In this document: positions 19,033-37,778 of the stretch, one piece after another
Numbering within the stretch: position 1 is the stretch's first letter
Layout of the letters: the number at the start of each line of letters is the position of its first letter
Assembly (NCBI RefSeq): GCF_005877005.1
Contig: NZ_SSNH01000004.1
Location: 62,001 to 126,000 of the forward strand
DNA length: 64,000 nt
Source of the DNA: Sinomonas susongensis
GTDB taxonomy: Bacteria > Actinomycetota > Actinomycetes > Actinomycetales > Micrococcaceae
Reading direction: 5' to 3'
Notes under the pieces: model-generated
Told to the model about the DNA's origin: nothing
Databases searched by the model: none
Seen by the model: only the letters and a program-made list of their open reading frames with translations
Position numbers and translations under genes: made by a program

Positions 19033-19389
19033 ATGAGGGCGAAGGACAGACTCGGTCAGCGTGGTGAGCGGCTCGCCGAGGACTACTTGAAGGCGAGCGG
19101 TGCCGTCATCCTGGATCGCAATTGGCGGTGCCGGGACGGGGAACTTGACCTTGTGGCGCTCGACGGCGCGGTGCTCGTCGCGGTCGAGGTGAAGTCACGC
19201 TCGTCCTGGGACTTCGGGCATCCCTTCGAAGCGGTCGACGACGCGAAGCTCGCCCGGGTCGCGCGCCTCGCCGCTGCGTGGGCCAAGGAGCATCGACTGC
19301 AGCGCGCCCGACGCCGCGTGGACGTGATCGCCGTGACAAGGCCGGAGGCGGCTTCGCCGTTGGTGGAGCATCTGCGGGGCGTCGCGTGA
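19033..19389 (+). CDS. yraN: YraN/UPF0102 family endonuclease-like protein
   Basis: A 118-residue predicted nuclease of the restriction-endonuclease fold. The catalytic-type residues are visible as GELDLVALDG and VAVEVKSRSS (D and ExK). It starts MRAKDRLGQRGERLAEDYLKASG. The TGA overlaps the comM GTG at 19386 by four bases, so comM is translationally coupled to it. This is the intact chromosomal copy; a shortened, diverged copy lies at 36070. Confidence 0.92.
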   Translation: MRAKDRLGQRGERLAEDYLKASGAVILDRNWRCRDGELDLVALDGAVLVAVEVKSRSSWDFGHPFEAVDDAKLARVARLAAAWAKEHRLQRARRRVDVIAVTRPEAASPLVEHLRGVA

Positions 19390-20329
19390 GCGGGGTGGGG
19401 CGTGCGCTGGGGATCGGGCTGGTGGGGCTGAACGGGTTCGTGGTGGAGGTCGAGTCGGACATCGGGCAGACGCTTCCGGCGTTCGTGCTGCTCGGCCTTC
19501 CGGATTCGGCGTTGAACGAGGCGAAGGAGCGGGTGAGGTCCGCGGCGCAGAACTCGGGCCTTCCGTTGAGCCGGCGCAAGATCACGGTCAACCTCATCCC
19601 GGCGTCGCTGCCGAAGCGGGGTACCGGGTTCGATCTGGCGATCACTGTCTCCGCGCTGGCCGCTGCGGGGGATATCCGTCCTCCTGCGGATACGGTCTTC
19701 GTCGCCGAGCTCGGCCTGGACGGACGGCTGAGGCCCGTCCAGGGGGTCCTGCCGGCGGTGATGGCGGCGGTCCGGGCGGGCTACCCGGATGTGGTCGTTG
19801 CGTCGGCGAACGAGGCGGAGGCGCGGCTCGTGCCGGGGGCGCGGGTGCGTGCGTATGGGAGCCTTGGGGCCCTCGCGCTCGACCTCGGTGCGGACCCGCT
19901 GAGCGTGGTCGTTCCGGAGGGGTCCGGGCGCGGTGCTCCGGCGGCTCCGGCGGGGGAGGGCGAGGTCGGTGGCGGGTCTGGCCGGGTGGGTCCGGACCTG
20001 CGTGATGTGGCGGGTCAGCAGGAGGCGCGGGCCGCGCTCGAGGTGGCGGCGGCCGGAGGGCATCACATCCTGATGCTGGGGCCTCCGGGTGCTGGCAAGA
20101 CGATGCTGGCCGAGCGGCTTCCGGGGATCCTTCCGGATCTGGATGACGAGGCGGCGATGGAGGTCACGGCAATCCACTCGCTCTCGAGCCGGCCGAGTGC
20201 GACGCGCGAGCTCGTCCGCCGGCCGCCCTTCGAGAGCCCCCACCACACGGCGAGCCCGGCAGCGATCGTCGGCGGAGGGGCGGGGATCGCGCGTCCCGGG
20301 GCGGCTTCGCGCGCGCACCGCGGCGTCCT
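19381..20329 (+). repeat. Left copy of a 949-bp direct repeat (5' comM)
   Basis: Lines compared base by base are identical to 36211-37159, a constant offset of 16,830. The first mismatch to the left is at 19380 (C against T). The first to the right is at 20330 (G against C, silent in Leu315). Eleven more bases match to 20341 before the sequences part. This repeat flanks the island and would allow its excision by homologous recombination, leaving one intact comM. Confidence 0.95.
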
Positions 20330-20426
20330 GTTCCTCGACGATTCAAGGGAGTTTATACACTCCCCGGTGGCAGCACAACATGGCGTCACCGCAAGGTCCC
20401 GCCTCGCGATCAGGATACCGAATTAA
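19386..20426 (+). pseudogene. comM: Truncated comM (5' part, interrupted by the island)
   Basis: This reads as ComM/YifB from MSGVGRALGIGLVGLNGF through Walker A (GPPGAGKT, residues 232-239) to LFLD in Walker B. It then enters island DNA and ends after 346 residues (RSRLAIRIPN). The full-length protein is 520 residues. ComM is an AAA+ helicase that promotes branch migration during natural transformation. This fragment keeps the original yraN-comM expression signals, so a truncated protein with the N-terminal Lon-like domain may still be made. It would lack the rest of the ATPase and is probably inactive, or could interfere with hexamers (inference). Confidence 0.92.
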
Positions 20427-20636
20427 GAGATCGGATACCAGATACGTAGGAATCGACTCTTAACTGGGGATTCAACCGGCGCGACGACGGAAGAGGTTGG
20501 CGGCTTTTGCCGTCTTCGTCACATAGGGGCAAGCCAAAGAAACAAAGGCTGCCTGTGCATCAGGCACCGCAAGCCGGAAATGTCGCACCCTGTGGGCTAT
20601 TTTGGATTCCAGCAACTTCGATCCGTAGGGGGGACA

Positions 20637-21221
20637 GTGGCGCTTCGTCGCGTTGATTCGGCCAAGCTTGTCCATGAGCCAGGGTGGTTCGGCAAAGGAC
20701 CGTTCGTCATGGTCCTCGGCCGGCGCGAGTTCGACGTGGGACGGCAGCGCAAGTGGAAGCAAGAAGAGGTCGACAACTTCTGGGACGCCGCCACGAGGTA
20801 CCCCGCATGGATCGCGACGACTAACGGAGTCCGGTACTGGCTCTTCCGCGGTCGCATCTTCTCGGAGAACGAGCACCTAGACCAAGGTGAGGTGTACGCG
20901 CTCCTCGTGTCTCGCGACCAGTACAACCAGCGCAAGGTCGATCGAGCCGTAGCAGCGGTTCAACAGGGAAGCACGCGCACCGCGCCGAACCGACGCCAGG
21001 GCATTCCCGATGAGGTGAAGCAGTACGTCTGGCAGCGGGACGGTGGCCGTTGCCGCAACTGCTGGACCGACACCGAGCTTCAGTTCGACCACATCATCCC
21101 CGTCGCCATGGGCGGCAGCAGTGAGCCTGAGAACCTCCAGCTCCTCTGCGGACCGTGCAACCGAGCCAAGGGTGCCGGCCTGACCAACCGTGGGGTACCG
21201 CCGGGGCCGACCTGGGGCTAG
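20637..21221 (+). CDS. HNH endonuclease
   Basis: A protein of 194 residues from GTG 20637, which has a strong GGGGGG RBS; an ATG at 20580 would add 19 residues. The C-terminal HNH domain is complete. CRNC is the first zinc pair, FDHIIPVAMGGSSEPENLQLLC carries the D-H, G-G and N-L residues, and CGPCNRAKG is the second pair. The N-terminal 110 residues (a WKQEEVDNFWDAA region and YWLFRGRIFSENEHL) are not recognised. It is the first gene inside the left junction, about 300 bp from the comM break. No methyltransferase is near, so classical restriction is unlikely. Homing or anti-phage use is possible. Confidence 0.85.
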   Translation: MALRRVDSAKLVHEPGWFGKGPFVMVLGRREFDVGRQRKWKQEEVDNFWDAATRYPAWIATTNGVRYWLFRGRIFSENEHLDQGEVYALLVSRDQYNQRKVDRAVAAVQQGSTRTAPNRRQGIPDEVKQYVWQRDGGRCRNCWTDTELQFDHIIPVAMGGSSEPENLQLLCGPCNRAKGAGLTNRGVPPGPTWG

Positions 21222-21261
21222 ATCCTGTTGGTGACCGACGCAGAAGCCGTAGTTTAGGCGC

Positions 21262-21549
21262 ATGACTAGCGAACCCACCGGAATCTGTTGGTGTGGATGC
21301 GGGACCGAGGTCGGACCAGGCTCCTACTTCGCCCCAGGGCACGACCGTGTCGCCGAAGCAGCGGTCTTGGCAGCCCGATATGGGAACTCGGTGCAGCAAC
21401 TCGTCGAGAAGCACGGATTCGGGCCGGACAAGAGTGTCCGGGAGGCAGCGGTTCAGAGCGGCCGCTGGGAGCGGTGTCAGGCCCCGGGTTGCGACTTCGT
21501 TGGTTCCCCTTTTAGCCTCCACATGCATCGCAACAGGGAACACCACTAA
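21262..21549 (+). CDS. Small zinc-finger protein of unknown function
   Basis: A 95-residue protein with two probable metal sites. The N-terminal ICWCGCGTEV segment is followed by YFAPGHD. The C-terminal CQAPGCDFVGSP segment with HMHRNREHH looks like a C2H2-type finger. The middle is helical (VAEAAVLAARYGNSVQQLVEKHG). It follows the HNH gene on the same strand. I cannot assign a function; DNA or RNA binding is a guess from the fingers. Confidence 0.65.
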   Translation: MTSEPTGICWCGCGTEVGPGSYFAPGHDRVAEAAVLAARYGNSVQQLVEKHGFGPDKSVREAAVQSGRWERCQAPGCDFVGSPFSLHMHRNREHH

Positions 21550-21710
21550 TCTCAGCGGGGGGATGGGCTTCAAATCCGGCATCCATCAACGGATATGGAC
21601 GTGCGCGTCCTCGTGATTTAGGCAACATGCCCATCACGTTCATTTCCCGGCAACCTCCGGAGTGGGACGCTTGGTCTTGTCGCAGGAACTGCGACCTCGG
21701 ACCTAACGAA

Positions 21711-21735
21711 AGAGGACCCGTGGCAGCGGGTCCTC
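21711..21735 (+). terminator. Hairpin terminator
   Basis: AGAGGACCCG and CGGGTCCTCT form a perfect 10-bp stem with a 5-base loop, followed by TCTC. It lies downstream of the HNH and zinc-finger genes. The gap 21550-21877 holds this hairpin and the leader of the small peptide gene; I see no other gene. Confidence 0.7.
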
Positions 21736-21877
21736 TTCTCCGGCTCGAGGCCGATACGGGCAGCTCGCGTGCCGCTCCGAAATGGGTTCTACGTTCCTCA
21801 CTGTAGGGGGACTCCATGGGCTTACGCCAGAAGGCACGCTTGCGAATCCCGGATGTTGCGCAGGGGAGGAGGAACCG

Positions 21878-21973
21878 ATGCACATCAACGGGAAGGACAT
21901 CGCCGCTATCGTGATCGCCGTGCTGCGGCTGATCAAGGCCGTCATCCAGCTGGTCGCCGACAACACGAAGTAA
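21878..21973 (+). CDS. 31-residue hydrophobic peptide
   Basis: A very small ORF, MHINGKDIAAIVIAVLRL and onward, ending with VADNTK. Residues 8-27 form an uninterrupted Ile/Val/Leu/Ala-rich helix with Arg17 and Lys20 spaced for an amphipathic face. GGGAGGAGG about 6 bases before the ATG is an excellent RBS. A strong hairpin terminator follows 24 bases after the stop, so this is a compact complete transcription unit. Size and composition resemble membrane-acting toxin or signalling peptides, but no family is recognised. Confidence 0.65.
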   Translation: MHINGKDIAAIVIAVLRLIKAVIQLVADNTK

Positions 21974-21996
21974 GTGCGACATGAAGTAAGTGCGAC

Positions 21997-22026
21997 GGTT
22001 GGCCCCGGGCTGTTCCGGGGCCAACC
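21997..22026. terminator. Strong hairpin terminator after the small peptide gene
   Basis: GGTTGGCCCCGG and CCGGGGCCAACC form a perfect 12-bp stem around a 6-base loop. Just upstream the sequence GAAGTAAGTGCGAC occurs twice in tandem, the first copy spanning the peptide gene stop codon. Confidence 0.8.
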
Positions 22027-22098
22027 ACTCCACGGCGGTGCACGAGTCAAATTAGACTCTCACCAGTATCAAAGCGTCTCTCATGGGGGTAGTAGGTC

Positions 22099-22989
22099 TT
22101 GAAGGTCTTCATCAGCTGGTCCCAAGACTCGTGCGAGTTTGCCGGCGCCCTCAAGAAGGTTATGAGGCAGCTCTTCGATACTGTTGAGACCTTCTTCAGC
22201 CCGGAGATCCCCGCCGGTGAGCAATGGCTCAACATGATCGAAGAAGAGCTAACGGACACGGACTTCGGGATCATCTGTGTGACGCGCCAGAACCAGCTCG
22301 CCCAGTGGCTGAACTACGAAGCCGGCGCCTTATCCCGCCAGGTGGGAGATCGGCGCAAGAGGCTGGGGGTCCTGCTCCTTGATTTCGAGAACACGAACGA
22401 CGTCGCGGGTCCATTCAAGAACTTCCAGATGAAGATGGCCACGCCGGAGGGCTTCAAGGGCCTGATGAAGTCGGTCAACGAGCTGGGCCCGAACATTGAT
22501 CTAGACGTCCTTGATGGTCGTATCGCCGGGGCATGGCCGCTCCTTGACGAGGCTCTCACCGCCCTGAGGAGCAGTGGACCGGCACCGAAAGTACCAGTGC
22601 GAAAGCTCGACGAGAAGGTCGACGAGCTGCTGACTCTCGTGCGCGGGTTCGACAAGTCGCTGAACGCCCCCGTGATCGCACCATTCGTCGTCTCGCCCGA
22701 GGAACGTGAGCAGGGCCGGGAGTTCATTTCTAGGCTCTACAAGCTGATGCGCGGGCGCGATGTTCATCTGTCATTCCGCCCTCTCGATGAGTCGACCAAC
22801 GTGCTCGACGTCTCACTTGCCGTAAGCGCTCAGGATCGCCGCTCGATCGAGGGGTACTATCGAGCTTTCTTCCCCGATGACACGAAGAGGCTCGTGATCA
22901 TGGACACCGCTTGGAAGGATCGCTTCGCGGTCGCTGCCGAGCAAGAACCCGAGGAGTCCATGCTGGCCAGTGAGTACAGCGATCTGTGA
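22099..22989 (+). CDS. TIR-domain protein
   Basis: A protein of 296 residues from a TTG start preceded by GGGGGT. Residues 1-130 read as a bacterial TIR domain: KVFISWSQDS at the first strand, FFSPEIPAGEQW, then GIICVTRQNQLAQWLNYEAGAL. The Glu in NYEAGAL sits where the catalytic glutamate of NAD-cleaving TIR enzymes lies. The C-terminal 100 residues (FVVSPEEREQGREFISRLYKLMRGRD and onward) are unrecognised. Bacterial TIR proteins commonly make nucleotide signals or deplete NAD during phage infection. No SIR2/ThsA-type effector is adjacent, so it is not an obvious Thoeris system. Confidence 0.8.
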   Translation: MKVFISWSQDSCEFAGALKKVMRQLFDTVETFFSPEIPAGEQWLNMIEEELTDTDFGIICVTRQNQLAQWLNYEAGALSRQVGDRRKRLGVLLLDFENTNDVAGPFKNFQMKMATPEGFKGLMKSVNELGPNIDLDVLDGRIAGAWPLLDEALTALRSSGPAPKVPVRKLDEKVDELLTLVRGFDKSLNAPVIAPFVVSPEEREQGREFISRLYKLMRGRDVHLSFRPLDESTNVLDVSLAVSAQDRRSIEGYYRAFFPDDTKRLVIMDTAWKDRFAVAAEQEPEESMLASEYSDL

Positions 22990-23087
22990 TTCGCGCACAA
23001 GGGCAGCACTTCCCTTTAGGTAACGAAAAAACTGGAGCCAATATAGTCTCCGCTACCCTTTCACCGGGGGAAGCGCCACAATCGAGT

Positions 23088-23267
23088 ATGTGCGCCATTA
23101 TCGTCGGTGTTCTCGCCTTCATCGTCGCCTCCGCTCTGGCTAACTTTCTCCATATATCGGTGCTTTGGTTCGTCGTCGGAGTGCCGGTCGCAATCTTCGG
23201 GTACGTGCTCTACGACGTGTTCTGGGACCCTACCGCCCGAAAACAGCGGCGAGAGCTGTACAAGTAG
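23088..23267 (+). CDS. Small membrane protein
   Basis: A 59-residue protein. Two hydrophobic segments (IIVGVLAFIVASALANFL and ISVLWFVVGVPVAIFGYVLYDVF) precede a basic tail, ARKQRRELYK. ATG 23088 was preferred over an in-frame start at 22986 because ACCGGGGGAAG lies ahead of it. It follows the TIR gene by 98 bases on the same strand and could be co-transcribed with it. No family is recognised. Confidence 0.6.
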   Translation: MCAIIVGVLAFIVASALANFLHISVLWFVVGVPVAIFGYVLYDVFWDPTARKQRRELYK

Positions 23268-23460
23268 CCGGATCTTCGACACGGAGCGGAACGCCGCTTG
23301 CTGCGGTGCTTTTCGCGAGGTACTCGGCTAGGTTGAAAGACGGATTCATCTACTTCTATTTTACGAAATTCTTGACGAAATTGATAGGTCGCCTCTCAAT
23401 AAGGGCCAGGAAGACCGGTAATCAGCCGGACTTCGCACCTAGCCCTGAAAGGGGAGAGCA

Positions 23461-23760
23461 ATGGGGTTTCGCCAGATACGCACTTCCGACATCACCGGCG
23501 CGACGATTGACGACAACAAGGTGATCACCGTGGTCGTCCGAGCAGCTGGCAAGCAGTTCGACACGACGGCTGAGGAGATCGCGCCGCTCAAGCGGGTCAC
23601 CAACGTCGTCCAGCTGGAACTCAAGCACGCGAACGGCAAGACCGAGGAGATCCTCGTCGACAAGGCCGACTTCGACAAGCTCGTCACGGCCGATGTCCTG
23701 AAGCGGGCAGACAGTTTGCGAGGGAGGAGGCAAGGTTATAGCCCGAAGAACGGTGGCTGA
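23461..23760 (+). CDS. Hypothetical protein
   Basis: A 99-residue charged, soluble protein (MGFRQIRTSDITGATIDDNKVITVVVRAAGKQFDTTAEE and onward). It is predicted to have several short beta strands in the first 60 residues and a basic tail (RGRRQGYSPKNGG). GAAAGGGGAGAG gives a good RBS. A hairpin terminator lies 71 bases after the stop. I recognise no family; the preceding 190 bases (23268-23460) hold nothing I can name. Confidence 0.6.
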   Translation: MGFRQIRTSDITGATIDDNKVITVVVRAAGKQFDTTAEEIAPLKRVTNVVQLELKHANGKTEEILVDKADFDKLVTADVLKRADSLRGRRQGYSPKNGG

Positions 23761-23830
23761 CCCCAACCTTGGCCCTGGTCTTGCGCTCGAGTTATCGCGC
23801 GGGGCTAGGGCCTTTCACTTTGCATTGAAA

Positions 23831-23857
23831 AAGGGCAGCTCGCTAGGGGCTGCCCTC
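23831..23857. terminator. Bidirectional hairpin terminator
   Basis: AGGGCAGC (23832-23839) and GCTGCCCT (23849-23856) pair around a 9-base loop, with A-rich sequence on the left and CTCTC on the right. It separates the plus-strand 99-residue gene from the minus-strand DUF3846 remnant. Confidence 0.7.
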
Positions 23858-23862
23858 TCTCA

Positions 23863-24337
23863 TCACGCAGGAATGACACGCACGTCGTTGACCAAAGCCC
23901 ATTTTGAGGCGAGAACCTGGCCGTGGTTGTATGCCTCCCCGACGTCGTTGAACCGACGCAGGCTGCCACTCCATCTGTTCGTGTCCTCGATGGTGGTCAC
24001 CTGGACGCGGTACGTCTCGGTGTGGAAGAAAAGGTCGATCAGCTCGTCCGGGACGGCCTGCGTATCGCCCTCCTCTTCAGCCGGCCGGCCCACGATCAGG
24101 ACATCGCCCATAAGCGCGTCCATGCCGCCATCTGGTCAGATGAGTCCAGAGCGCGAGCGTGGCACGACGGTTGAGGGGAAGTCCCACGCTCTTACCGTCC
24201 TCATTGATGACTAGCGTTGCGTCGGGTCGATCGATGGCCAGGACTTCGATGTAGCCGCCGACACCCTTCTGCATGTCCGCCAGTCCGTCCACGTCGATCA
24301 GCTCGATCGGCTGGGACTCCTCAGCTGGGATCTTGAT
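23863..24337 (-). pseudogene. DUF3846-type gene, frameshifted and without a normal start
   Basis: Two minus-strand frames together make one DUF3846-like protein. Part 1 (24337 down to about 24130) reads IKIPAEESQPIELIDVDGL, then GGYIEVLAIDRPDATLVINEDG and LPLNRRATLALW. Part 2 (from 24123) continues MGDVLIVGRPAEEEGD to the stop at 23863. A +1 shift is needed near 24125-24135. No ATG, GTG or TTG precedes the IKIPAEE segment; the first usable start is GTG 24292. DUF3846 proteins are small and common in actinophages and mobile elements. The gene looks broken, unless part 2 is translated from its own ATG. Confidence 0.65.
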
Positions 24338-24360
24338 TGCCTGAGCCGAACTTGACGGGT

Positions 24361-24546
24361 CTACGCGGCCTCATCGCGGTCTCGTGGCGCCTCGCGCTGA
24401 AGTAGCTCAAAGACGATGTGGACGATCTCGCGCTGTGTGGCAGCGAGCCGATCGGGGGAGTGCCTGATGGCTTCGACGCTGCCGAGCAACTCTGCGTAGC
24501 GCGTCTCAAGGTATGCGGATGGTGACTCTTGAATGTGGTCGATCAT
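24361..24546 (-). CDS. Small hypothetical protein
   Basis: A 61-residue, mostly helical, charged protein (MIDHIQESPSAYLETRYAEL and onward). Its stop lies just upstream of the DUF3846 remnant, so the two probably formed an operon on the minus strand. AGGAAA precedes the ATG. No family is recognised. Confidence 0.5.
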   Translation of the reverse strand: MIDHIQESPSAYLETRYAELLGSVEAIRHSPDRLAATQREIVHIVFELLQREAPRDRDEAA

Positions 24547-24660
24547 GTTGGTTTCCTAGTTCCGCCGGCCAAGTCGTTTGGTAAGCGGGACTAGGTGCAT
24601 CAATGCGAGTGCTGATGCATCCAGCGGGCCACGGAGGTGTACAAAAGATAGTTGTAGTTA

Positions 24661-24789
24661 CTAAATGATAGTGGTGTGGCCCTTGCAAAAATAGATGTTT
24701 CGCTTGCGGGGGTGTGAACCCGTGCGAATAAGCTGCCAGCAGACGACTGCGAGTCCTCTGCTCTTCACGCGCCAGGTGAGGGTGGGCAT
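24661..24789 (-). CDS. Possible 42-residue basic protein
   Basis: A short minus-strand ORF beginning MPTLTWRVKSRGLAVVCWQL and ending KGHTTII. It is rich in Arg and Lys and holds two cysteines. CAGGTG lies directly ahead of the ATG. Being short and unmatched, it may be a chance ORF. Confidence 0.3.
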   Translation of the reverse strand: MPTLTWRVKSRGLAVVCWQLIRTGSHPRKRNIYFCKGHTTII

Positions 24790-24931
24790 CACCTGACGCT
24801 TGAAGAACCAAGGAAAGGGGTGCTGACGGCGAATGTCATAGCCGTCGCGGTCTGTGCCCCGTCCTAGATACTTTGGAGAATATCACTAAAAGAAGGTGGG
24901 CGAGGCACCCTAGAAAGGGCGAGCACTGCTT

Positions 24932-25039
24932 CTACTTGGTAGCTTGCTGGCGTTTTAGATTCAGTTTGTGAAGCTCGACGAAGAACTGTTCTGAGGGCAG
25001 TGCTTCGTAACTGAGCGTGATGCTAGATAACTTACTGAT
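24932..25039 (-). CDS. 35-residue ORF with a perfect Shine-Dalgarno and an apparent ATC start
   Basis: On the minus strand AGGAGGTG (25051-25044) is followed four bases later by ATC AGT AAG, reading ISKLSSITLSYEALPSEQFF and onward to the TAG at 24932. No ATG, GTG or TTG exists in this frame before the peptide, and a TGA sits just upstream. The RBS and spacing are ideal, so this is either a rare AUC-initiated gene or one whose ATG has mutated. The surrounding 24790-25203 is AT-rich; I see nothing else firm there. Confidence 0.4.
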   Translation of the reverse strand: MSKLSSITLSYEALPSEQFFVELHKLNLKRQQATK

Positions 25040-25203
25040 AGATCACCTCCTGACGCACAGTGTGAAGTATCACGTCCATTTTTGCAGTACAGGTTCATGA
25101 GTATTGCAGTTAGCAGAGGTGCCGACGGAAGGAAATGTGGAAAAGTCTGTCGGACAGAAGTGCTTGGGGGCGGCCAGCCTGCTCGAGCTGGCCACCCTCG
25201 GCG

Positions 25204-25341
25204 CTAGACCTGCTTCACCTGGAGCAGCTGCCATCCCTCGGGCACCCTGGCCTGGATGAGTTCGAACGCCTCCTGGTAGGCGCCGGCTTCGACCTCGATT
25301 TCTCTTGTCTCTGTGGGGCGGATGGTGCCACCAACTTTCAC
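25204..25341 (-). CDS. Small DUF4177-like protein
   Basis: A 45-residue ORF from GTG 25341: MKVGGTIRPTETREIEVEAG, then AYQEAFELIQARVPEGWQLL and QVKQV. The EGWQLLQV ending resembles the small DUF4177-type modules (GWELVSV). The same kind of EGWEFVSQ module forms the N-terminus of the DUF4839 protein 52 bases upstream on the same strand, so the two are probably an operon. The function is unknown. Confidence 0.5.
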   Translation of the reverse strand: MKVGGTIRPTETREIEVEAGAYQEAFELIQARVPEGWQLLQVKQV

Positions 25342-25392
25342 TCGTTCGACACTAGCGCCCTGCGGGGCACGACGGCCCTCGCCGCTCCGGTG

Positions 25393-26130
25393 TCACCGAA
25401 CGGCGGTTGAGACTGGAGAGAGGTAGAAGAGGTTGCCGCTGGAGTTGTAATCGCCAACGTCGGCGACGAGGTGGACGTTATCTCTCTGGGCGACCGAAGG
25501 CTGCGTTCCGGTGAGATGCATTTGAACCATGCTGACGCCGTTGTACTGGAAAGCCGGCCCCACCTGATGGTCTGCACTGTAGTTTCCAGCAGTGATCAAC
25601 ACGTCATACACATATTTGTCGCCATCGTGACTCGATAGCAGAGTGATGTTTCCATCGAACTCGATCGTCCGTCCCTGGTACTTCGCAGCGAAATCCTCTT
25701 GCTGCTTCTCGGACGGTTCCGGTGCGGCCAGAAGCGCTGCGAGATCTGCATTGTTCTGGACGGTCAGATTCTGCACCGCCGGGGTCGCCGACGTTGCGGA
25801 CGTCGACGGGGCAGAGGTGGCCTTCTCGCTCGCTACAACTGCGACGTCAGATGCGGACGCCGTCGGCGCAGCGGTAGCCCCGCCACCATGTGTTGCGTCT
25901 ACTGTGATGCCGACGATAGCGAGGACCAGAAGCAAGGCCGCACCCGCTCCTATGAGCTTCAGCGGCAGCTTGGCCTTTACGCGCCGGAACTCCATCTTCG
26001 TCCGCAGCAGCTCCTGGTTCTGGGAGACAAACTCCCAGCCTTCCTTCTCCCACTTCGCCCTCGTCCTGGCTTCTGCGCCACGAATCGTCTGGACGTTCTT
26101 GACCTCGTACTTTGGCTGTTCGTCAGCCAT
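25393..26130 (-). CDS. DUF4839 domain membrane protein
   Basis: A 245-residue protein. Residues 1-55 form a cytoplasmic module (KYEVKNVQTIRGAEARTRAKWEKEGWEFVSQ and the KMEFRR segment). A transmembrane helix lies at about 59-78 and is followed by a Ser/Thr/Ala-rich linker. An extracytoplasmic domain from about 125 (VQNNADLAALLAAPEPSEKQ, RTIEFDGNI, FYLSPVSTAVR) matches my recollection of DUF4839. The function is unknown; such proteins are frequent in Micrococcales accessory regions. ATG 26130 follows AGGGGGAAGCCGC. Confidence 0.72.
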   Translation of the reverse strand: MADEQPKYEVKNVQTIRGAEARTRAKWEKEGWEFVSQNQELLRTKMEFRRVKAKLPLKLIGAGAALLLVLAIVGITVDATHGGGATAAPTASASDVAVVASEKATSAPSTSATSATPAVQNLTVQNNADLAALLAAPEPSEKQQEDFAAKYQGRTIEFDGNITLLSSHDGDKYVYDVLITAGNYSADHQVGPAFQYNGVSMVQMHLTGTQPSVAQRDNVHLVADVGDYNSSGNLFYLSPVSTAVR

Positions 26131-27462: not shown

Positions 27463-27489
27463 GCCTCAAGGATCGCACATATGTTCGAA

Positions 27490-31271: not shown

Positions 31272-32027
31272 ATGGGCTACACCGAGCACCGGATTCTTCA
31301 CACGAACAAAAAGCAGCTGAAGGTCCAGAAGCAGATCGCTGCCAACACTGCGGCCCAGGTGCAGATCCAGCGCCAGCAGCAGCGTCAGCAGCTCGAGATC
31401 CAAAAGCAGCAGCTCGAGATCCAGCGCCAACAGATGCTGATTTCTGAACGTCACCGTCTCGATTCACTTGCGGCTACTCATGTCGCTGAAGGCACGATGA
31501 CGCGTCCCCAAGCTGACGAGTTCGTCGAGCTTGAGATGGTGAACTTTGCGGTGCCACCAGCGCAGCCCAGGCTCAGGGTTAGGCCGGCAGGGATACTTTC
31601 TGCGGGAGGGAATGACAGGGAAAGCCTCAAGATGAATCTGGCCGGCTGGTATAAGGACGATGCCATCGCCCGGTATTGGGACGGGGCGCGGTGGACACTC
31701 CAGACCATGCCGCTAGAGCAGGCGAAAGCGCTCGTTCGTCGAGAGTGGGAGGCCGCTGGAGATGCGGCCGCAGCGAGCGGCGCCCCGCTGAAGTCCCGCA
31801 AGGTGGCTGGGCTCCTTGCGATCTTCCTGGGCTGTTTCGGCATTCACCGCATGTATCTCGGGAGTGGAGCCCTCGGCTTTCTTCTCCTGCTCTTCTGCCT
31901 CTTGACGAGCTTCTTCCTCTTCGGAGTCCCGTCCCTGATCATTGGGATCGTCGACGGGGTCAAGATCCTTCGGGGTGTGAACCCAGAATTCCAGCGGGAT
32001 TCTCGAGGGCTTCCTCTACGCGCCTAA
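31272..32027 (+). CDS. DUF2510-TM2 domain membrane protein
   Basis: A 251-residue protein. Residues about 13-62 are a Gln-rich coiled coil with the repeat QQLEIQKQQLEIQRQQ. Residues about 122-143 (AGWYKDDAIARYWDGARWT) are a DUF2510 Trp motif. A TM2 domain from about 173 (KSRKVAGLLAIFLGCFGIHRMYLG, then two hydrophobic helices) follows. The GGGGGA RBS supports ATG 31272. DUF2510 with TM2 is common in Actinobacteria; the role is unknown. Confidence 0.75.
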   Translation: MGYTEHRILHTNKKQLKVQKQIAANTAAQVQIQRQQQRQQLEIQKQQLEIQRQQMLISERHRLDSLAATHVAEGTMTRPQADEFVELEMVNFAVPPAQPRLRVRPAGILSAGGNDRESLKMNLAGWYKDDAIARYWDGARWTLQTMPLEQAKALVRREWEAAGDAAAASGAPLKSRKVAGLLAIFLGCFGIHRMYLGSGALGFLLLLFCLLTSFFLFGVPSLIIGIVDGVKILRGVNPEFQRDSRGLPLRA

Positions 32028-32068
32028 GTCGGCGAGATGCTCGGTCATGTATGCGAGGGAGATACGAA

Positions 32069-32305
32069 TTGAAGCAGAAGCTGATCTCCGCGACGATCGC
32101 CGGCGTGACGGTCCTGGCCCTCACCGGATGCGTCGGTTCAACCCAAGCGGCGCCGGCGACAGTTACCGTGACCGCGACTCCTCCTCCGGCCCTCTCTCAA
32201 CCGCCTGCGCCAGCAACGCCTTCAGCCGTGGTCAACGCTGCTCCCGCTCCATCTGCCGTCGCCACGGCGCCGGAGCAGCCGAAGCCGGCGTACACACGCC
32301 TATGA
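32069..32305 (+). CDS. Lipoprotein-like signal and linker ORF
   Basis: A protein of 78 residues from TTG 32069 (RBS AGGGAGA; an ATG at 32051 is also in frame). The signal LKQKLISATIAGVTVLALTGC has a perfect lipobox, followed only by a Pro/Ala/Thr-rich linker and the end PKPAYTRL. There is no folded domain. The stop overlaps the ATG of the next ORF (ATGA). It may be the front half of one lipoprotein split by a frameshift, with the globular half at 32302. Confidence 0.55.
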   Translation: MKQKLISATIAGVTVLALTGCVGSTQAAPATVTVTATPPPALSQPPAPATPSAVVNAAPAPSAVATAPEQPKPAYTRL

Positions 32306-32640
32306 CCTTGAAGCTGGCGTACAACGAGACGATCATCGAATGCGTCAGCGACCCGAGTGACAAGGGAAAGGTGTTCAACCTCCTGGACGGTGACACCGAG
32401 ATTGAGACCGTCATGAATCAGAATGAGGATCTTTACGGGGTGACCAACGCGATAAGTCCGTCCCAGCTTGGCTGTCTGTTCAAATACCTCGGGATTTCCT
32501 TGCAAGTAGCCAGCAACATCCTTCATTGCCAGCCTGGTGCCGCGACACAGACCACCACTGAAGGAAACCTTGATTACGCGTGGAAGTGCACCAGCAGAGA
32601 GCTTGGCTTAGTCGTCAAGGTTAACAATCCCGGAACCTAG
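32302..32640 (+). CDS. Hypothetical globular protein, possible second half of the split lipoprotein
   Basis: A 112-residue protein, MTLKLAYNETIIECVSDPSD and onward, with four cysteines (IECVSD, GCLFKYL, LHCQPG, KCTSREL). It overlaps the preceding lipoprotein-signal ORF by four bases. It has no signal of its own. Fusion of the two would give a normal lipoprotein layout of signal, linker and Cys-containing domain. Either a frameshift mutation or translational coupling explains the arrangement. Confidence 0.5.
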   Translation: MTLKLAYNETIIECVSDPSDKGKVFNLLDGDTEIETVMNQNEDLYGVTNAISPSQLGCLFKYLGISLQVASNILHCQPGAATQTTTEGNLDYAWKCTSRELGLVVKVNNPGT

Positions 32641-32663
32641 CGAGCGCCTCCGCGGCCTACTAA

Positions 32664-32703
32664 CAGAACGACCCCTGGCGGATTATCGCTGGGGGTCGTT
32701 CTG
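32664..32703 (+). terminator. Hairpin terminator after the lipoprotein series
   Basis: CAGAACGACCCC and GGGGTCGTTCTG form a perfect 12-bp stem with a 16-base loop, 24 bases after the preceding stop. It ends the plus-strand series 30093-32640. The gap to 32899 shows nothing else. Confidence 0.8.
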
Positions 32704-32898
32704 CGTGGGTTGCTTAGCATCCCCTGCCACAGGACGTTGCCTCTTTCTTATCGCATAATCTACCTTCGGTTTCAAGGCCCGCCGCTTTTCTGCCAGCGTG
32801 GGCTCGAAATGGCGTGTGTTCGTTTCAGGTACGGCATGGTGTTTGTTTAGCAGGTCTGAGAGGTTTATATGGCCTCATAATCGCACGAATGCGTCTAA

Positions 32899-33084
32899 AT
32901 GTATCTCCCCGCCTATAGCGTCGACTACATCCTCCAAGCGATCGTCGATCGGTCCTCCCTCGAGCCAGCTGGCATCCTGCGGATGCTGGCTGACCACATC
33001 ATCGAGGGGGAGAGCTTCGCAGACGCCGCTTGCCGCTTGGCAATTGACCTGATCAAGAGCGGCGTAATCGAGGGCGCGGCGTGA
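32899..33084 (+). CDS. Small hypothetical protein
   Basis: A 61-residue helical protein, MYLPAYSVDYILQAIVDRSS and onward, ending IKSGVIEGAA. No good RBS is visible. Its stop overlaps the start of the next gene by four bases (GTGA), which supports both as real and co-translated. The function is unknown. Confidence 0.5.
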   Translation: MYLPAYSVDYILQAIVDRSSLEPAGILRMLADHIIEGESFADAACRLAIDLIKSGVIEGAA

Positions 33085-33317
33085 TCGACGCTGCCACCTT
33101 GCGTAAGGGTCTCGCCCAAGGGATCAGCAACGCCGAGCGCACAAAGCTCGACGACAGCCGGCCGATGGTCGCGGGCTGCGCTCATCCGCTCCAGACCTAT
33201 CGCCAAACCGTTGTCCCAACGAACGCCCGGTTCAAAGGCGCCGGTGCTCACTTCATCGTGAAGGCTTGTGTCACTTGCCGGACGAAGCGCGCCGTCGACT
33301 ACGTGGTGGAGCGCTGA
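33081..33317 (+). CDS. Small hypothetical protein with a CxxC pair
   Basis: A protein of 78 residues from GTG 33081. GCAHPLQTYRQT and KACVTCRTKRAVDY bring a Cys-x-His and a Cys-x2-Cys together, a plausible single zinc site. It is coupled to the 61-residue ORF upstream. The function is unknown. Confidence 0.5.
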   Translation: MIDAATLRKGLAQGISNAERTKLDDSRPMVAGCAHPLQTYRQTVVPTNARFKGAGAHFIVKACVTCRTKRAVDYVVER

Positions 33318-33477
33318 CGGATAGCTCCCACCACCGATCTTCGACATATCTGCGAATACTTGTCTTTCACATGTCAAATTGAAAGGATGACGCTTGCCGC
33401 AAGCGGGACCTGACGTCGTCGAAAACATGGGGGTGCCGGCCGGCGTATCTGCTTCATACGAGTAGGGGGTCCCTGAC

Positions 33478-34293
33478 ATGACCGAACTGAGCGAAGAACG
33501 CCCCGCCGAGGCTGAGAGTACGCCGGAAGCGCCGAGCACACCGGTTGTCGAACAGCCTGTCGTCGACACCGGACAGACCGAGCCCGTCCCTGTGGAGCCA
33601 AGCCAAGAGCCGCCAGCAGGTGATGAGCCATCGGTCACAGACGCTCCCATCGTGGATGGCGCGTCGAGCACCGCGCCGTGGCCCCCGATGCCACCACAGC
33701 CTCCAGTCGCCACGCGCAAGCGGCCCGGCAAGCTGCGCAGTGTCCCTCGCCGGGCCTGGATCACCGTAGGCGCTCTCTTCGTCGCGGGCGGTGTGATCGG
33801 CGCCCTTATCGGAGTTGCTGCCCAGCCTGACCCGACGACGAGCAAGGCGTACGTCGCGCTCCAGAGTGCTGCCGCGAGCCAGAGCTCCCAGATTGTCGAT
33901 CAGAATGGGACGATCCAGAACCTTCGCTCTCAGGTCGACTCCAATTCTTCACAGGCTGCTGCTCTTTCGGCTGCACAGGCGTCGGTCGCTGCCCAGGCAT
34001 CAGCGGTGGCGTCTGAGCAGGCGGCTGTACAGTCCGCACAGGCTGTGGTCGTTCAGAACCAGATCCCCGCAGGTGAATACGTTGTTGGTAAGGACGTGAA
34101 GGCCGGGACGTATCGCAGCAACGGTCCTGATGGCAGCAATGGTGCCGGCTGCTTCTACGAGTGGCGAGCGGGAACTGATGCCAACGCCTCGATCATCGAC
34201 AACAACATCTCTCAGGGAGCCGCGACGGCGACACTGACCGACGGTCAAGTGTTCCGTACCGATGGTTGCCAGCCATGGAACAAGGTCGGCTGA
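33478..34293 (+). CDS. Membrane-anchored protein with an extracytoplasmic domain
   Basis: A 271-residue protein. Residues 1-80 are acidic and Pro-rich. A basic patch (RKRPGKLRSVPRRA) precedes a transmembrane helix at about 93-114. An Ala/Gln/Ser-rich coiled coil follows to about 190. The C-terminal domain IPAGEYVVGKDVKAGTYRSNG, with two cysteines (GCFYEW and DGCQPW), is a module often attached to actinobacterial surface proteins. GGGGGT precedes ATG 33478. The function is unknown. Confidence 0.7.
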   Translation: MTELSEERPAEAESTPEAPSTPVVEQPVVDTGQTEPVPVEPSQEPPAGDEPSVTDAPIVDGASSTAPWPPMPPQPPVATRKRPGKLRSVPRRAWITVGALFVAGGVIGALIGVAAQPDPTTSKAYVALQSAAASQSSQIVDQNGTIQNLRSQVDSNSSQAAALSAAQASVAAQASAVASEQAAVQSAQAVVVQNQIPAGEYVVGKDVKAGTYRSNGPDGSNGAGCFYEWRAGTDANASIIDNNISQGAATATLTDGQVFRTDGCQPWNKVG

Positions 34294-34315
34294 TGCCAAG
34301 GTAACGCCAAAAGGT

Positions 34316-34349
34316 GAGGCCCACAGTGACGAAAAAGGCTGTGGGCCTC
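34316..34349 (+). terminator. Hairpin terminator
   Basis: GAGGCCCACAG and CTGTGGGCCTC form a perfect 11-bp stem with a 12-base loop, shortly after the stop of the 271-residue protein gene. Confidence 0.8.
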
Positions 34350-34371
34350 ATTCATGTCTAGAGTGCGGAAC

Positions 34372-34394
34372 TTCGGGCTTCACCCGTTTGATGC
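34372..34394. repeat. Short direct repeat flanking the nuclease gene, left copy
   Basis: These 23 bases match 35462-35484 at 21 positions (starting TTCGGGCTTCAC, ending TTGATGC). The two copies bracket the nuclease gene at 34410-35375. Read on the minus strand, both encode IKRVKPE near a stop codon, as if the gene had been inserted into or copied with a 3' coding end. Confidence 0.6.
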
Positions 34395-34409
34395 CTGGGG
34401 TATGTGCGC

Positions 34410-35375
34410 TCAGCCGTTGCCGTCTGGGAGATCGAGTGGCTCGCTCGCCCGCTCGGCCTCAGCCCGATATGCATTGGCCACGTTCGTCGCGAAGGCGATC
34501 AGGTCGTTGACGGTCGCGTCGGAAATCCAGCCAGGCCCAGTCCTAGCCGACTTGCTGTCCAGACGGAAGATCGCATTCGCCTGAGTGCGGAATGATTCTG
34601 TCGTCAACGCCGGAATGGCAATGCCGCTGTTGCTGCCGGCGTACGAGCGGAACGGGATGACGACGTGGCCATCCGGGTACAGCGCGATCACTGAGCGCTG
34701 CCTTATGCCGCCCGTTGCTGGTCCGCGAGCAGCCAGTGTCACGTGGCGACCGTCCCCGTAGAACCAGACCGCGTGGCCGAACGACCGCCATCTGCTGATG
34801 ACCTGCTCGACCGCCTGCCTCAAGGAAGCGTCGGTGAATCGAGACCAGAACTCGTCGACGCCGCCACCGCCTTCGGTGCGCTTGACTGCCCCCACGCTTG
34901 CGGTGAAGCTGTTCGGGCGCACGACTGTGTCGAAAAGCGGCGCCCAGAGGCTGTCGCCGATCCGGACGGCCCGCGCCTCGAGCAGCCACACTTTGATGCC
35001 CTTATCCGGATCAAGTTCCGCCAGATCGTTCAAGTACTCGGCCACGGCGCGGAACTCGTCCCGGTGCTCCTCGGCAATGACCACCAGGCCGCGGGCGCGC
35101 GGGGGAGCGACTGCATATGCGAGACCGCGGGTCAGATGGTCGTGGTCAGCGCGGCCATACTGGTTCTCGATCACGAACGACGTGCCGTCCTCGCCTTCGG
35201 CGACAATGTCGATTCGGCGTCCACCGGTCGTCGGTACCTCTGTCTTGCCGATCTCGACGAGATCCACCCCGATAGCGGCGCCAATCTCGTCGAGACGCTC
35301 GGCCAGTAGCGGAGTGAAGTCAGATGCCTCGCCTCTCCACGCCTCGGTGAGGCGCCCGAACTCCACTCTCCCCAT
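34410..35375 (-). CDS. PD-(D/E)XK nuclease-like protein
   Basis: A protein of 321 residues from ATG 35375 (MGRVEFGRLTEAWRGEASDF); GTG 35384 is also possible. The nuclease-type core is GGRRIDIVAEGEDGTSFVIE followed by NQYGRADHDHLTRGLAYA. Here D and E-x-Q occupy the D and (D/E)xK positions of the fold, the lysine being Gln. The middle (GLVVIAEEHRDEFRAVAEYL and KGIKVWLLEARAVRIGD) is typical of this group of stand-alone nuclease-like proteins. The C-terminal 120 residues are unrecognised. No methylase is nearby. A defence or DNA-repair role is inferred. Confidence 0.7.
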   Translation of the reverse strand: MGRVEFGRLTEAWRGEASDFTPLLAERLDEIGAAIGVDLVEIGKTEVPTTGGRRIDIVAEGEDGTSFVIENQYGRADHDHLTRGLAYAVAPPRARGLVVIAEEHRDEFRAVAEYLNDLAELDPDKGIKVWLLEARAVRIGDSLWAPLFDTVVRPNSFTASVGAVKRTEGGGGVDEFWSRFTDASLRQAVEQVISRWRSFGHAVWFYGDGRHVTLAARGPATGGIRQRSVIALYPDGHVVIPFRSYAGSNSGIAIPALTTESFRTQANAIFRLDSKSARTGPGWISDATVNDLIAFATNVANAYRAEAERASEPLDLPDGNG

Positions 35376-35434
35376 TGAAGTCACGAGCGAATCGTAGCGC
35401 TTCGAGCTAACACATGGCGCTCCTTATTCGGATC

Positions 35435-35578
35435 TCAGAGTTCGGAGCTGCCCCGCCACTGTTCGGGCTTCACACGCTTGATGCTCGATGCCCGCGCCCA
35501 GCCGACGTGGTAGACGGCCGCGGCGTCGACCACTCGATCAGGCCGTAGAACTTGGTCCAGGCGTAGGCCTTCCCTCAA
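35435..35578 (-). CDS. Possible 47-residue ORF or gene remnant
   Basis: From TTG 35578 the minus strand reads MREGLRLDQVLRPDRVVDAA, then AVYHVGWARASSIKRVKPEQ and WRGSSEL. The tail looks protein-like and is shared in part with the sequence left of the nuclease gene. Upstream (35579-35762) another frame ends SSLQEFPKYGKPLV. Together 35385-35762 probably holds remnants of one or two broken genes; nothing intact is visible. Confidence 0.3.
   Translation of the reverse strand: MREGLRLDQVLRPDRVVDAAAVYHVGWARASSIKRVKPEQWRGSSEL
35462..35484. repeat. Short direct repeat flanking the nuclease gene, right copy
   Basis: This partner of 34372-34394 matches at 21 of 23 bases, 1,090 bp away. Confidence 0.6.
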
Positions 35579-35762
35579 TGCTGCCGACCTAGACGAGGGG
35601 CTTGCCGTACTTCGGGAACTCCTGGAGCGATGATGCGTCGCCGATCGGCCGGGTCTCCTCGGCGCGCATCCTGGCCATCATGCGCTCGAACTCGTCCGGG
35701 CTCCCGCTCTTGGTCGCACGTCAAGATTAGAACATGTGTTCGAACGGGATCGATGGTTGGTG

Positions 35763-35981
35763 CTACACGAAGAAGCCGCGCTGGACAGCAGAGATCATGA
35801 ACGAAGTAGCACCGATGGCTATCATCACGACCCACGCGACCCCCTGGCCTAGCAGCCGGCGGTTGGCTGAACGTAGTGCATGCAAGATTATCCAGCCGAA
35901 GACGGAGACATCTGCGACGTAAATGAGGATGACGAGCACAGCGCGGAGGAAGCTCGGCATGCTATCGACGGCGTACGGCAT
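35763..35981 (-). CDS. Small two-helix membrane protein
   Basis: A 72-residue protein. Two hydrophobic segments (FLRAVLVILIYVADVSVFGW and GVAWVVMIAIGATSFMIS) are separated by a basic loop (RSANRRLLGQ). GGAGGG precedes ATG 35981. It is the last island gene before the imported yraN-comM promoter region, and is divergent from it. The function is unknown. Confidence 0.6.
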   Translation of the reverse strand: MPYAVDSMPSFLRAVLVILIYVADVSVFGWIILHALRSANRRLLGQGVAWVVMIAIGATSFMISAVQRGFFV

Positions 35982-36069
35982 TTGCCCTCCACCGTGAGCG
36001 CTTCGGCGTGTTCCCCACATGGTCTCCGTTCCGGGGCCAGCTGATCGCTCCAGTGGGGAAGCTTGCCCT

Positions 36070-36219
36070 ATGAGGTCGAAGGACAGAATCGGACTGTGCG
36101 GTGACGGGCTGGTCGAGAACTATTTGAAGATGAGCCAGGCCGCTTTCTTCGCTCGCGACTCCGTGACGGGGCCGGAGGCGGTTTCGCCGTTGGTGGAGCA
36201 TCTGCGGGGTGTCGCGTGA
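36070..36219 (+). CDS. Internally deleted, in-frame yraN leader ORF
   Basis: A 49-residue ORF that joins a diverged yraN start (MRSKDRIGLCGDGLVENYLK, compare MRAKDRLGQRGERLAEDYLK) to the normal yraN end (PEAVSPLVEHLRGVA). About 69 codons, including the whole nuclease core, are missing. The reading frame is kept, and the TGA overlaps the comM GTG at 36216 exactly as in the intact locus. It cannot be an active nuclease. Its likely value is to preserve translation coupling into comM. The upstream region 35990-36069 resembles the chromosomal yraN leader (TCCCCACAT block) with many changes. Confidence 0.7.
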   Translation: MRSKDRIGLCGDGLVENYLKMSQAAFFARDSVTGPEAVSPLVEHLRGVA

Positions 36220-37159
36220 GCGGGGTGGGGCGTGCGCTGGGGATCGGGCTGGTGGGGCTGAACGGGTTCGTGGTGGAGGTCGAGTCGGACATCGGGCAGA
36301 CGCTTCCGGCGTTCGTGCTGCTCGGCCTTCCGGATTCGGCGTTGAACGAGGCGAAGGAGCGGGTGAGGTCCGCGGCGCAGAACTCGGGCCTTCCGTTGAG
36401 CCGGCGCAAGATCACGGTCAACCTCATCCCGGCGTCGCTGCCGAAGCGGGGTACCGGGTTCGATCTGGCGATCACTGTCTCCGCGCTGGCCGCTGCGGGG
36501 GATATCCGTCCTCCTGCGGATACGGTCTTCGTCGCCGAGCTCGGCCTGGACGGACGGCTGAGGCCCGTCCAGGGGGTCCTGCCGGCGGTGATGGCGGCGG
36601 TCCGGGCGGGCTACCCGGATGTGGTCGTTGCGTCGGCGAACGAGGCGGAGGCGCGGCTCGTGCCGGGGGCGCGGGTGCGTGCGTATGGGAGCCTTGGGGC
36701 CCTCGCGCTCGACCTCGGTGCGGACCCGCTGAGCGTGGTCGTTCCGGAGGGGTCCGGGCGCGGTGCTCCGGCGGCTCCGGCGGGGGAGGGCGAGGTCGGT
36801 GGCGGGTCTGGCCGGGTGGGTCCGGACCTGCGTGATGTGGCGGGTCAGCAGGAGGCGCGGGCCGCGCTCGAGGTGGCGGCGGCCGGAGGGCATCACATCC
36901 TGATGCTGGGGCCTCCGGGTGCTGGCAAGACGATGCTGGCCGAGCGGCTTCCGGGGATCCTTCCGGATCTGGATGACGAGGCGGCGATGGAGGTCACGGC
37001 AATCCACTCGCTCTCGAGCCGGCCGAGTGCGACGCGCGAGCTCGTCCGCCGGCCGCCCTTCGAGAGCCCCCACCACACGGCGAGCCCGGCAGCGATCGTC
37101 GGCGGAGGGGCGGGGATCGCGCGTCCCGGGGCGGCTTCGCGCGCGCACCGCGGCGTCCT
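36211..37159 (+). repeat. Right copy of the 949-bp direct repeat (5' comM)
   Basis: Identical to 19381-20329. Because the flanking yraN parts differ strongly while these 949 bases are identical, either this part was copied recently between the two sites by gene conversion, or the repeat arose by very recent exchange. Confidence 0.95.
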
Positions 37160-37778
37160 CTTCCTCGACGAGGCCCCCGAGTTTCATCGGAACGTTCTCG
37201 ATTCCCTGCGCCAGCCTCTCGAGAGCGGCGTGGTCAGCATCGACCGGGCGGCCGGGACGGCGGCATATCCGGCCCGGTTCCTGCTCGTGCTCGCGGCCAA
37301 TCCTTGCCCCTGCGGCCAAGGCTCTGGCAAGGGCCTTCTGTGCACCTGCCCGCCCCAGGCGAAGCGACGGTACCTCGCACGGCTCTCCGGCCCGCTCCTC
37401 GACCGGGTGGACATCCAGCTCGGCGTACGGCACGTTTCTGCCGTCGATCTGGGAAGCAGCACCCCCGGGGAGGCCTCTCAGGCCATCGCCGCCCGGGTCC
37501 TGCGCGCGAGGGAGCGCCAAGCCGAACGGTTGCGCCCCTTCGGCTACTCGACAAACGCGGAGGCGCCCGGACGGCTCCTGCGGGGTCCGCTGAGGCTCCC
37601 GTCCACATCGACGGCCATCTTGGATCGCGCCCTTGAGACGCACACCCTCACGGCCCGGGGCTACGACCGCGTCCTCCGGCTCGCGTGGTCCATCGCGGAC
37701 CTGGCCGGCAGTGCGCGGCCGACCGCCGACAACGTCGGGGAAGCGCTGCTCCTTCGCACGGCGGAGGAGGCCCGATGA
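36216..37778 (+). CDS. comM: ComM/YifB family Mg-chelatase-like AAA+ protein
   Basis: A 520-residue, full-length protein. ComM is a hexameric helicase that extends heteroduplex by branch migration when transformed DNA is integrated. It has an N-terminal Lon-protease-like domain, Walker A GPPGAGKT (232-239), Walker B LFLDEAPEF (about 315), NPCPCG with a Cys cluster (CPCGQGSGKGLLCTCPP) and a C-terminal lid (ARGYDRVLRLAWSIADLAG). It is rebuilt from the island-side 5' part and the chromosomal 3' part. The GTG start overlaps the mini-yraN stop, and the stop overlaps the dprA ATG. Confidence 0.95.
   Translation: MSGVGRALGIGLVGLNGFVVEVESDIGQTLPAFVLLGLPDSALNEAKERVRSAAQNSGLPLSRRKITVNLIPASLPKRGTGFDLAITVSALAAAGDIRPPADTVFVAELGLDGRLRPVQGVLPAVMAAVRAGYPDVVVASANEAEARLVPGARVRAYGSLGALALDLGADPLSVVVPEGSGRGAPAAPAGEGEVGGGSGRVGPDLRDVAGQQEARAALEVAAAGGHHILMLGPPGAGKTMLAERLPGILPDLDDEAAMEVTAIHSLSSRPSATRELVRRPPFESPHHTASPAAIVGGGAGIARPGAASRAHRGVLFLDEAPEFHRNVLDSLRQPLESGVVSIDRAAGTAAYPARFLLVLAANPCPCGQGSGKGLLCTCPPQAKRRYLARLSGPLLDRVDIQLGVRHVSAVDLGSSTPGEASQAIAARVLRARERQAERLRPFGYSTNAEAPGRLLRGPLRLPSTSTAILDRALETHTLTARGYDRVLRLAWSIADLAGSARPTADNVGEALLLRTAEEAR

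Follow-up and report, generated by a model that had tools for sequence, protein, structure and literature searches.

How can a genomic island interrupt a gene and have a complete copy of the same gene at its edge? This question is raised by the comM locus of Sinomonas susongensis, a soil actinobacterium of the Micrococcaceae, which lies in a stretch of 64,000 nt (positions 62,001 to 126,000 of contig NZ_SSNH01000004.1, assembly GCF_005877005.1), called the window below. We consider it likely that an element encoding a large serine recombinase (LSR) split comM at its Walker B motif, that the other end of this element was replaced by a second head of the yraN-comM operon, and that the two comM halves were homogenised by recombination.

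A direct repeat and a second operon head

The window was compared with itself using blastn, which revealed a gap-free direct repeat of 1,011 bp with 99.5% identity (19331-20341 and 36161-37171). The 5 mismatches (19338, 19339, 19352, 19380, and 20330) are confined to the vicinity of the repeat ends, where reads anchored in the unique flanks could resolve them, and the identical core comprises 949 bp (19381-20329) at a constant offset of 16,830. The genes rnhB and yraN lie on the left side of the first copy, and the remainder of comM, dprA, and xerC lie to the right of the second. The left comM is part of an open reading frame (ORF, 19278-20426) that departs from the gene after position 20341, at the Walker B motif near residue 319, whereas the right comM encodes 520 aa with all three domains. 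A first-pass annotation, made from the letters of the window, had described the 949 identical bases and their offset, the cut left and full-length right comM, and a gene that is split by the island and made whole by the 5’ half at the right edge; all of these points were borne out. A direct repeat with a truncated outer copy and a complete copy is the arrangement left by insertion-duplication. One comM 3’ half was found in the genome of the window, plus one weak match to an AAA domain. A plain tandem duplication by itself was ruled out, because the two copies are separated by about 15.6 kb of DNA with other genes and a lower GC content (0.575-0.647 in the 1-kb windows from 20001 to 36000, and 0.654-0.722 in the remaining ones).

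The duplication reaches further to the left than comM. The segment 35969-36135 aligns with 18932-19098, that is, with the region upstream of yraN and the yraN start, and it leads into a yraN remnant that is about 70% identical to native yraN (Table 1). Divergence forms a mosaic, with 69-73% identity in the yraN block and 100% across 949 bp of comM. A second operon head, made up of the intergenic block, the yraN remnant, and the comM 5’ half, forms the right edge of the island. The duplicated piece starts upstream of yraN and includes a yraN with an in-frame deletion, and it is therefore chromosomal DNA and not the attachment arm of a phage. The first-pass claim that the island brings a comM 5’ segment was correct in that a second 5’ half is present, but it was too narrow, as the piece also holds the yraN remnant and its upstream region. 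Because the old divergence in yraN directly adjoins 949 identical bases, we infer that homologous recombination took place between the comM copies.

The compared loci, including those of 14 other members of the genus, did not contain a donor of the second yraN. The best long match had 70% identity (G006; genomes are denoted by our handles, and G000 is that of the window), and the other matches were short (54 and 64 bp at 76% and 72%). Quartet sites joined the native and the right copy in 7 cases and supported the alternatives in 4 and 3 cases, which is too few to decide. The second copies of G000, G412, and, judged by eye, G131 begin a short way upstream of yraN, close to a TCCTCCAC-like block that is also visible in several loci of the family. 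This block may be a recombination site, or a promoter or regulator site. Because it is visible in several family loci, selection for a promoter explains the start point of the second copies as well as a recombination site does. In the window (18925-19032) and in related loci of several Micrococcaceae, TCCTCCAC-like and CCCACATAG-like blocks are located about 30 bp apart upstream of yraN-comM, and they possibly form a regulator or promoter site.

The Walker B junction, its recombinases, and the content of the island

The comM gene was searched in 58 genomes, in 15 genomes of the genus, and in 395 genomes of the family, each set including the genome of the window. A comM match was present in 390 of the 395 family genomes; the three best candidates per genome were scored, so that cut genes may be missed, and a second search covered 40 genomes that had given more than one match or a weak best one. 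In different genomes, comM is cut near residues 85, 240, 319, and 490, in agreement with the first-pass description of the gene as an island hotspot. The set with a cut at the Walker B motif comprises 14 genomes, named below by class; G104 (contig end) and G174 (overlapping pieces and a frameshift) were excluded.

The left edge of the island is located on a GA dinucleotide (20340-20341) in the Walker B codon. A comparison with related genomes, which the first-pass annotation had suggested, revealed that comM is cut at the same GA in 12 other genomes of the family, and an LSR gene lies beside the cut in five of them. For 13 genomes, including that of the window, the 5’ junctions were placed by a script, which found the break after GAY-GA in 12 cases; the remaining one (G331) was read by eye and lies in the same codon. 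The comM fragment of G058 is too decayed for placement of the junction. Six of seven 3’ junctions resume at GA-GGC according to the script, and the same was read by eye for G175. A breakpoint distributed uniformly over comM would fall within 3 bp of the GA position about 0.45% of the time. By eye, the element-side arm of the window resembles the arms of G225, G412, G207, and G131. The exact 32-base pattern of the left edge had 0 matches in the genome contigs searched, which possibly do not include the window's own genome. As the GA position is common to 12 other genomes and an LSR gene is found beside the junction in five, the sequence at 20340-20341 is very probably the attL of an LSR.

A search for the Recombinase domain (PF07508) covered 26 genomes, 24 of which had a match somewhere. 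The LSR ORFs beside the Walker B junction form two groups, one in G225, G295, and G400 (52-61% mutual identity) and one in G320 and G175 (91%). Four of these five were scanned with Pfam, and all four contain Resolvase, Recombinase, and Zn-ribbon domains. Separate groups are found at residue 490 (G003, G010, and G014; 72-75%) and at residue 85 (G014, G129, G411, and G080; 45-64%), and thus, among the 12 ORFs compared, the recombinase group is specific to each comM site. For a Walker B LSR, phage records contained only relatives with less than 60% identity, the best listed one having 32%. Because a viral contig encodes an LSR that is 43% identical to the Walker B group and carries comM residues 317-357 at its edge, some Walker B LSR elements may be prophages.

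Three further arrangements were seen at other positions of comM. In G303, G411, and G403, the cut falls close to the Walker A motif (about residue 240), and a distance of about 192 kb separates the halves in G303. In G129 (L070:10346-12031), the start of comM up to about residue 85 shares one open frame with the LSR of the inserted element. On a viral contig (L192), comM residues 95-519 adjoin a serine recombinase.

No recombinase was detected within the island of the window. Matches to Recombinase (PF07508), Resolvase (PF00239), or Phage_integrase were absent from it. Also, tblastn with the 12 LSR ORFs did not yield a match inside it; of the four matches in the window, three lie in the two comM copies, with ORFs that run into comM, and one lies at 52926-53219 in the gene for 6-phosphogluconate dehydrogenase. 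A tyrosine integrase was rejected as the enzyme of the island, since it has no match there and the single Phage_integrase match of the window is xerC, downstream of dprA. A transposase, looked for in connection with the tni genes of AbaR/Tn7-like elements, was not found among the 17 island ORFs that were scanned with Pfam. An attR joining the element to the 3’ part of comM is not present, as the latter is joined to the comM 5’ copy. The island is therefore filed as a remnant of an LSR element at the comM Walker B site and not as an active member, because its junction lies at the GA core but no LSR gene is contained in it.

Across the Walker B set, an LSR gene is present at the locus in 5 of 7 genomes in which comM is only split (G225, G295, G400, G320, G175, G198, and G331), and in none of the 7 that have a second comM (G000, G131, G207, G414, G058, G412, and G125; Fisher's exact test, one-sided p 0.010, two-sided 0.021). 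This association is suggestive only: the genomes are related to one another, and the classes were assigned by hand, with an inferred class for G412, a frameshift in comM of G125, and an unassembled gap in G131. In G331, an LSR gene that shares a contig with the comM 3’ half but lies 67 kb away from it was not counted.

The features of the locus are summarized in Table 1. Relatives of the island among the 395 family genomes were found as pieces only, with matches in 48 genomes in a shallow search that scored two candidates per genome. The gene of the PDC-S11 candidate has DNA matches of 78-81% in G153, G348, and G003. Relatives of the TIR protein are encoded near the Walker B junction in G198, G225, G400, G414, and G207 (tblastn, loci L043-L078). 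Short pieces of the island occur inside or beside comM islands in G198 and G414 (TIR gene) and in G010, and no long match was found at comM. Pieces 84-91% identical to positions 28745-30883 are present elsewhere in G006 (contig C12), and part of the island thus occurs in the genus outside comM. Apart from the island, the window contains a tandem duplication of an ammonium transporter gene and a neighbouring small gene (2757-6685, about 81-83% DNA identity), and the first small gene encodes a P-II regulator.

Table 1. Features of the comM locus and of the island in the window.
Feature	Position	Strand	Basis
Native yraN (UPF0102), intact, 118 aa; stop overlaps comM start	19033..19389	+	Pfam UPF0102 6.5e-26
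Left comM, 5’ part alone, residues 1 to ~318, cut at Walker B codon	19386..20341	+	repeat comparison; protein match residues 1-325
Proposed attL: GA core (20340-20341) and element-side arm	20340..20365	+	GA position common to comM cuts elsewhere
Island body, ~15.6 kb, lower GC; right limit approximate	20342..35960		GC; profile searches; tblastn with 12 LSR ORFs
HNH endonuclease, 213 aa	20580..21221	+	PF01844 2.6e-12
TIR-domain protein (PADLOC TIR-TM-like), 296 aa	22099..22989	+	PF13676 5.9e-7; PDLC03016 4.6e-31
DUF4839 protein, 245 aa	25393..26130	-	7.4e-35
TM2 / DUF2510 protein, 251 aa	31272..32027	+	Pfam
Candidate phage-defence protein (PDC-S11), 324 aa	34410..35384	-	PDLC04911 2.4e-37
Second copy of yraN upstream region and yraN start, ~27-31% diverged from native	35969..36135	+	72.6% over 168 bp; 69.2% over 169 aligned columns (multiple alignment)
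yraN remnant, 49-codon frame, in-frame internal deletion; start, stop, and comM overlap retained	36070..36219	+	sequence comparison
Right copy of the 1,011-bp direct repeat	36161..37171	+	blastn of window on itself
Complete comM, 520 aa; ChlI, Mg_chelatase, and Mg_chelatase_C domains	36216..37778	+	ORF and Pfam
dprA	37685..39022	+	PF02481 2.9e-64
xerC	39159..40085		Phage_integrase match

Proposed course of events and competing explanations

In the proposed course of events, an LSR element would have integrated at the Walker B codon of comM, as the comparison with other genomes suggests, splitting the gene and generating attL at 20340-20341. The recombinase and the attR end would then have been lost, and the second operon head would have been joined to the original comM 3’ half. 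The outcome of this step is seen in the window, namely one complete comM in front of dprA and an island without an exit of its own. Two routes would lead to this same structure, which cannot tell them apart: incoming DNA may have repaired a broken comM, or an intact cell may have taken up a circle of operon head, comM 5’ half, and island by a single crossover. In a cell with a broken comM, the second copy could have been supplied by homology-facilitated illegitimate recombination, which published accounts describe for competent bacteria. Last, judging from the divergence pattern, the comM 5’ halves would have been made identical by gene conversion or crossover, while the yraN copies stayed diverged. 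The first-pass annotation had attributed the structure to homologous recombination and not to an integrase. Recombination has indeed acted on the repeat, as the mosaic indicates, but the contrast fails: the left edge lies at the GA where 12 other genomes have their comM cut, in five cases next to an LSR gene, so that the original insertion was probably the work of an integrase, with recombination acting later or moving the result.

Related layouts were found in other genomes. In G412, which belongs to another genus (g9), contig C31 (5,893 bp) begins with the tail of the comM 5’ part and crosses the junction. Its first 95 bp are identical to the end of the contig with the comM 3’ half and dprA (C26), its last 95 bp are identical to the region upstream of yraN on contig C12, and comM residues 1-290 were found on no contig. 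We infer that G412 has the layout of the window with a repeat so alike that it was collapsed in the assembly. In G131, rnhB and yraN are followed on one contig by an insertion of 4 kb and a cut comM 5’ fragment, whereas yraN, a full comM, and dprA are on another; the comM 5’ parts are 78% identical. In G147, a comM fragment (residues 114-267, 73% at the DNA level) lies between rnhB and a complete yraN-comM-dprA. G207 is a mirror image. Its complete comM lies at the left, and to the right of it come a 5’ remnant (83.5%) that reaches the Walker B junction, a stretch with a TIR gene, and finally a comM 3’ part. This 3’ part, from residue 359 and including downstream DNA, matches the complete gene without a difference over 804 bp; the comparison covered the locus except for about 3 kb in its middle. 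The comM beside dprA and the cut fragment are on different contigs in G414, G058, and G125, and the comM of G125 is frameshifted.

Several observations weigh against the proposed course. Neither an LSR remnant nor attR remains, and the integrase origin thus rests on the position and the look of one junction, the element-side arm of which is only broadly like the arms elsewhere. LSR genes next to the junction are likewise lacking in G198 and G331, where comM is only split. The cut fragment and the full comM are on separate contigs in G131, G414, G058, and G125, and the same process is not necessary for all of them. The sister genomes G009 and G006 have a different insertion of 1.1-1.3 kb upstream of yraN, so that insertions at this place are not specific to the process. 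In addition, a draft assembly of 36 contigs has to bridge a near-perfect 1-kb repeat, and a tandem duplication of the operon head before the arrival of the island would look much alike. The insertion in G009 (L038) and G006 (L039) lies between DUF2469 and yraN, contains a lipoprotein-like frame, and has no match to the island.

An early tandem duplication would imply a different order, in which yraN-comM was duplicated first, the island entered the left copy, and a deletion removed the right end of the island and, with it, the comM 3’ half of that copy. In favour of this order, which we consider unlikely, the yraN copies have the age expected from 27-31% divergence, and in G207 a complete comM adjoins both ends of a split comM. 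However, the second copies in G000, G412, and (by eye) G131 share nearly the same start point, just upstream of yraN, and each is bordered on its left by other DNA; such agreement would not be expected of random deletions. Alternatively, the integrase could still be the agent of gene restoration. Some phages rebuild the gene they insert into, and the element might carry the operon head as a standing part, so that insertion at Walker B rebuilds comM every time. Such a device fits the structure with its complete comM and the similar layout in G412. It nevertheless appears improbable, because comM is split and lacks a second 5’ match in the five genomes with an LSR (G225, G295, G400, G320, and G175), the carried piece includes yraN and its upstream region, and the comM 5’ half of a foreign element would be expected to differ from the native one instead of matching it over 949 bases.

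An origin without any serine recombinase was also considered. A non-integrating circle with a 1-kb comM fragment would yield the repeat by insertion-duplication after a single crossover in comM, and the island has no integrase match; still, the comM fragment ends at the GA position cut in other genomes, five of them with an LSR, where chance would place it as rarely as calculated above, and we regard this origin as very improbable. An assembly artefact, by which a single comM 5’ half was placed on either side of the island, is hardly credible. In a draft, small differences within a 1-kb repeat may be lost and the mismatches lie only toward the repeat ends, but the right copy has its own yraN remnant with a different sequence and an in-frame deletion, and the same kind of layout exists in other genomes. 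An extension of the proposed course, which we put forward with considerable doubt, is that a circle of the yraN upstream block, yraN, the comM 5’ half, and the island enters and leaves an intact comM by RecA-dependent recombination, comM being whole in both states. If so, integrase islands in comM would have a second, integrase-free life in which a host competence gene serves as a portable homology arm. This would explain the identical repeats of about 0.8-1.4 kb around such islands in different genera beside old, diverged DNA.

Relation to known systems

In natural transformation, ComM assists the chromosomal integration of diverged DNA. Mobile elements can be removed by transformation, and the interruption of comM by islands is discussed as part of the conflict between the two (PMC11472951, PMC4795794). 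The window possibly represents a later stage of this conflict, in which comM is whole again and the island stays after loss of its integrase. If the order of events were shown, the locus would be a record of a host regaining comM, or of an island for which breaking the gene is no longer necessary. Cuts near residues 85, 240, 319, and 490 across the family, with both cut and restored cases at 319, make this question testable in actinobacteria.

The final geometry of the window is that of a Campbell-type insertion-duplication, in which a circle with a gene fragment generates a truncated left copy, a complete right copy, and a repeat that equals the carried fragment. The window differs from such an insertion in that the fragment stops at what is probably an LSR core, and in that yraN in the second copy is diverged and hence old.

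Competence genes are enriched among LSR targets, and a gene annotated as magnesium chelatase, which in our reading is comM/yifB, is the target of 12.4% of the predicted site-specific LSRs (Durrant et al. 2022, PMC10083194). The island of the window shares this target gene with these elements. However, it lacks the recombinase and attR and a second comM 5’ half restores the gene, whereas the LSR-bearing islands compared leave comM split. AbaR and other islands of Acinetobacter baumannii also interrupt comM, and some carry defence genes (PMC11472951). That study (2024, Acinetobacter/Legionella) describes AbaR elements as Tn7-like and considers that comM may be regained through recombination; the sections consulted do not describe an island that stays in place between a duplicated half of comM. 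The recA island RME of Vibrio cholerae carries a full divergent recA and a phage integrase, and it excises as a circle (PMC4405046). Both RME and the island of the window reside in a recombination gene of which a working copy is kept, but the window has half a gene and upstream operon DNA joined to the native other half, and no integrase. The first-pass annotation knew of no description of such gene rebuilding. This has to be qualified with respect to comM recovery, which is discussed in PMC11472951, while it stands for the duplicated half, as the listings and abstracts of the open-access literature searched contained no description of an integrase-free comM island flanked by one. Taken together, the targeting of comM by LSRs was already known, and an integrase-free island beside a restored comM adds a new form to it.

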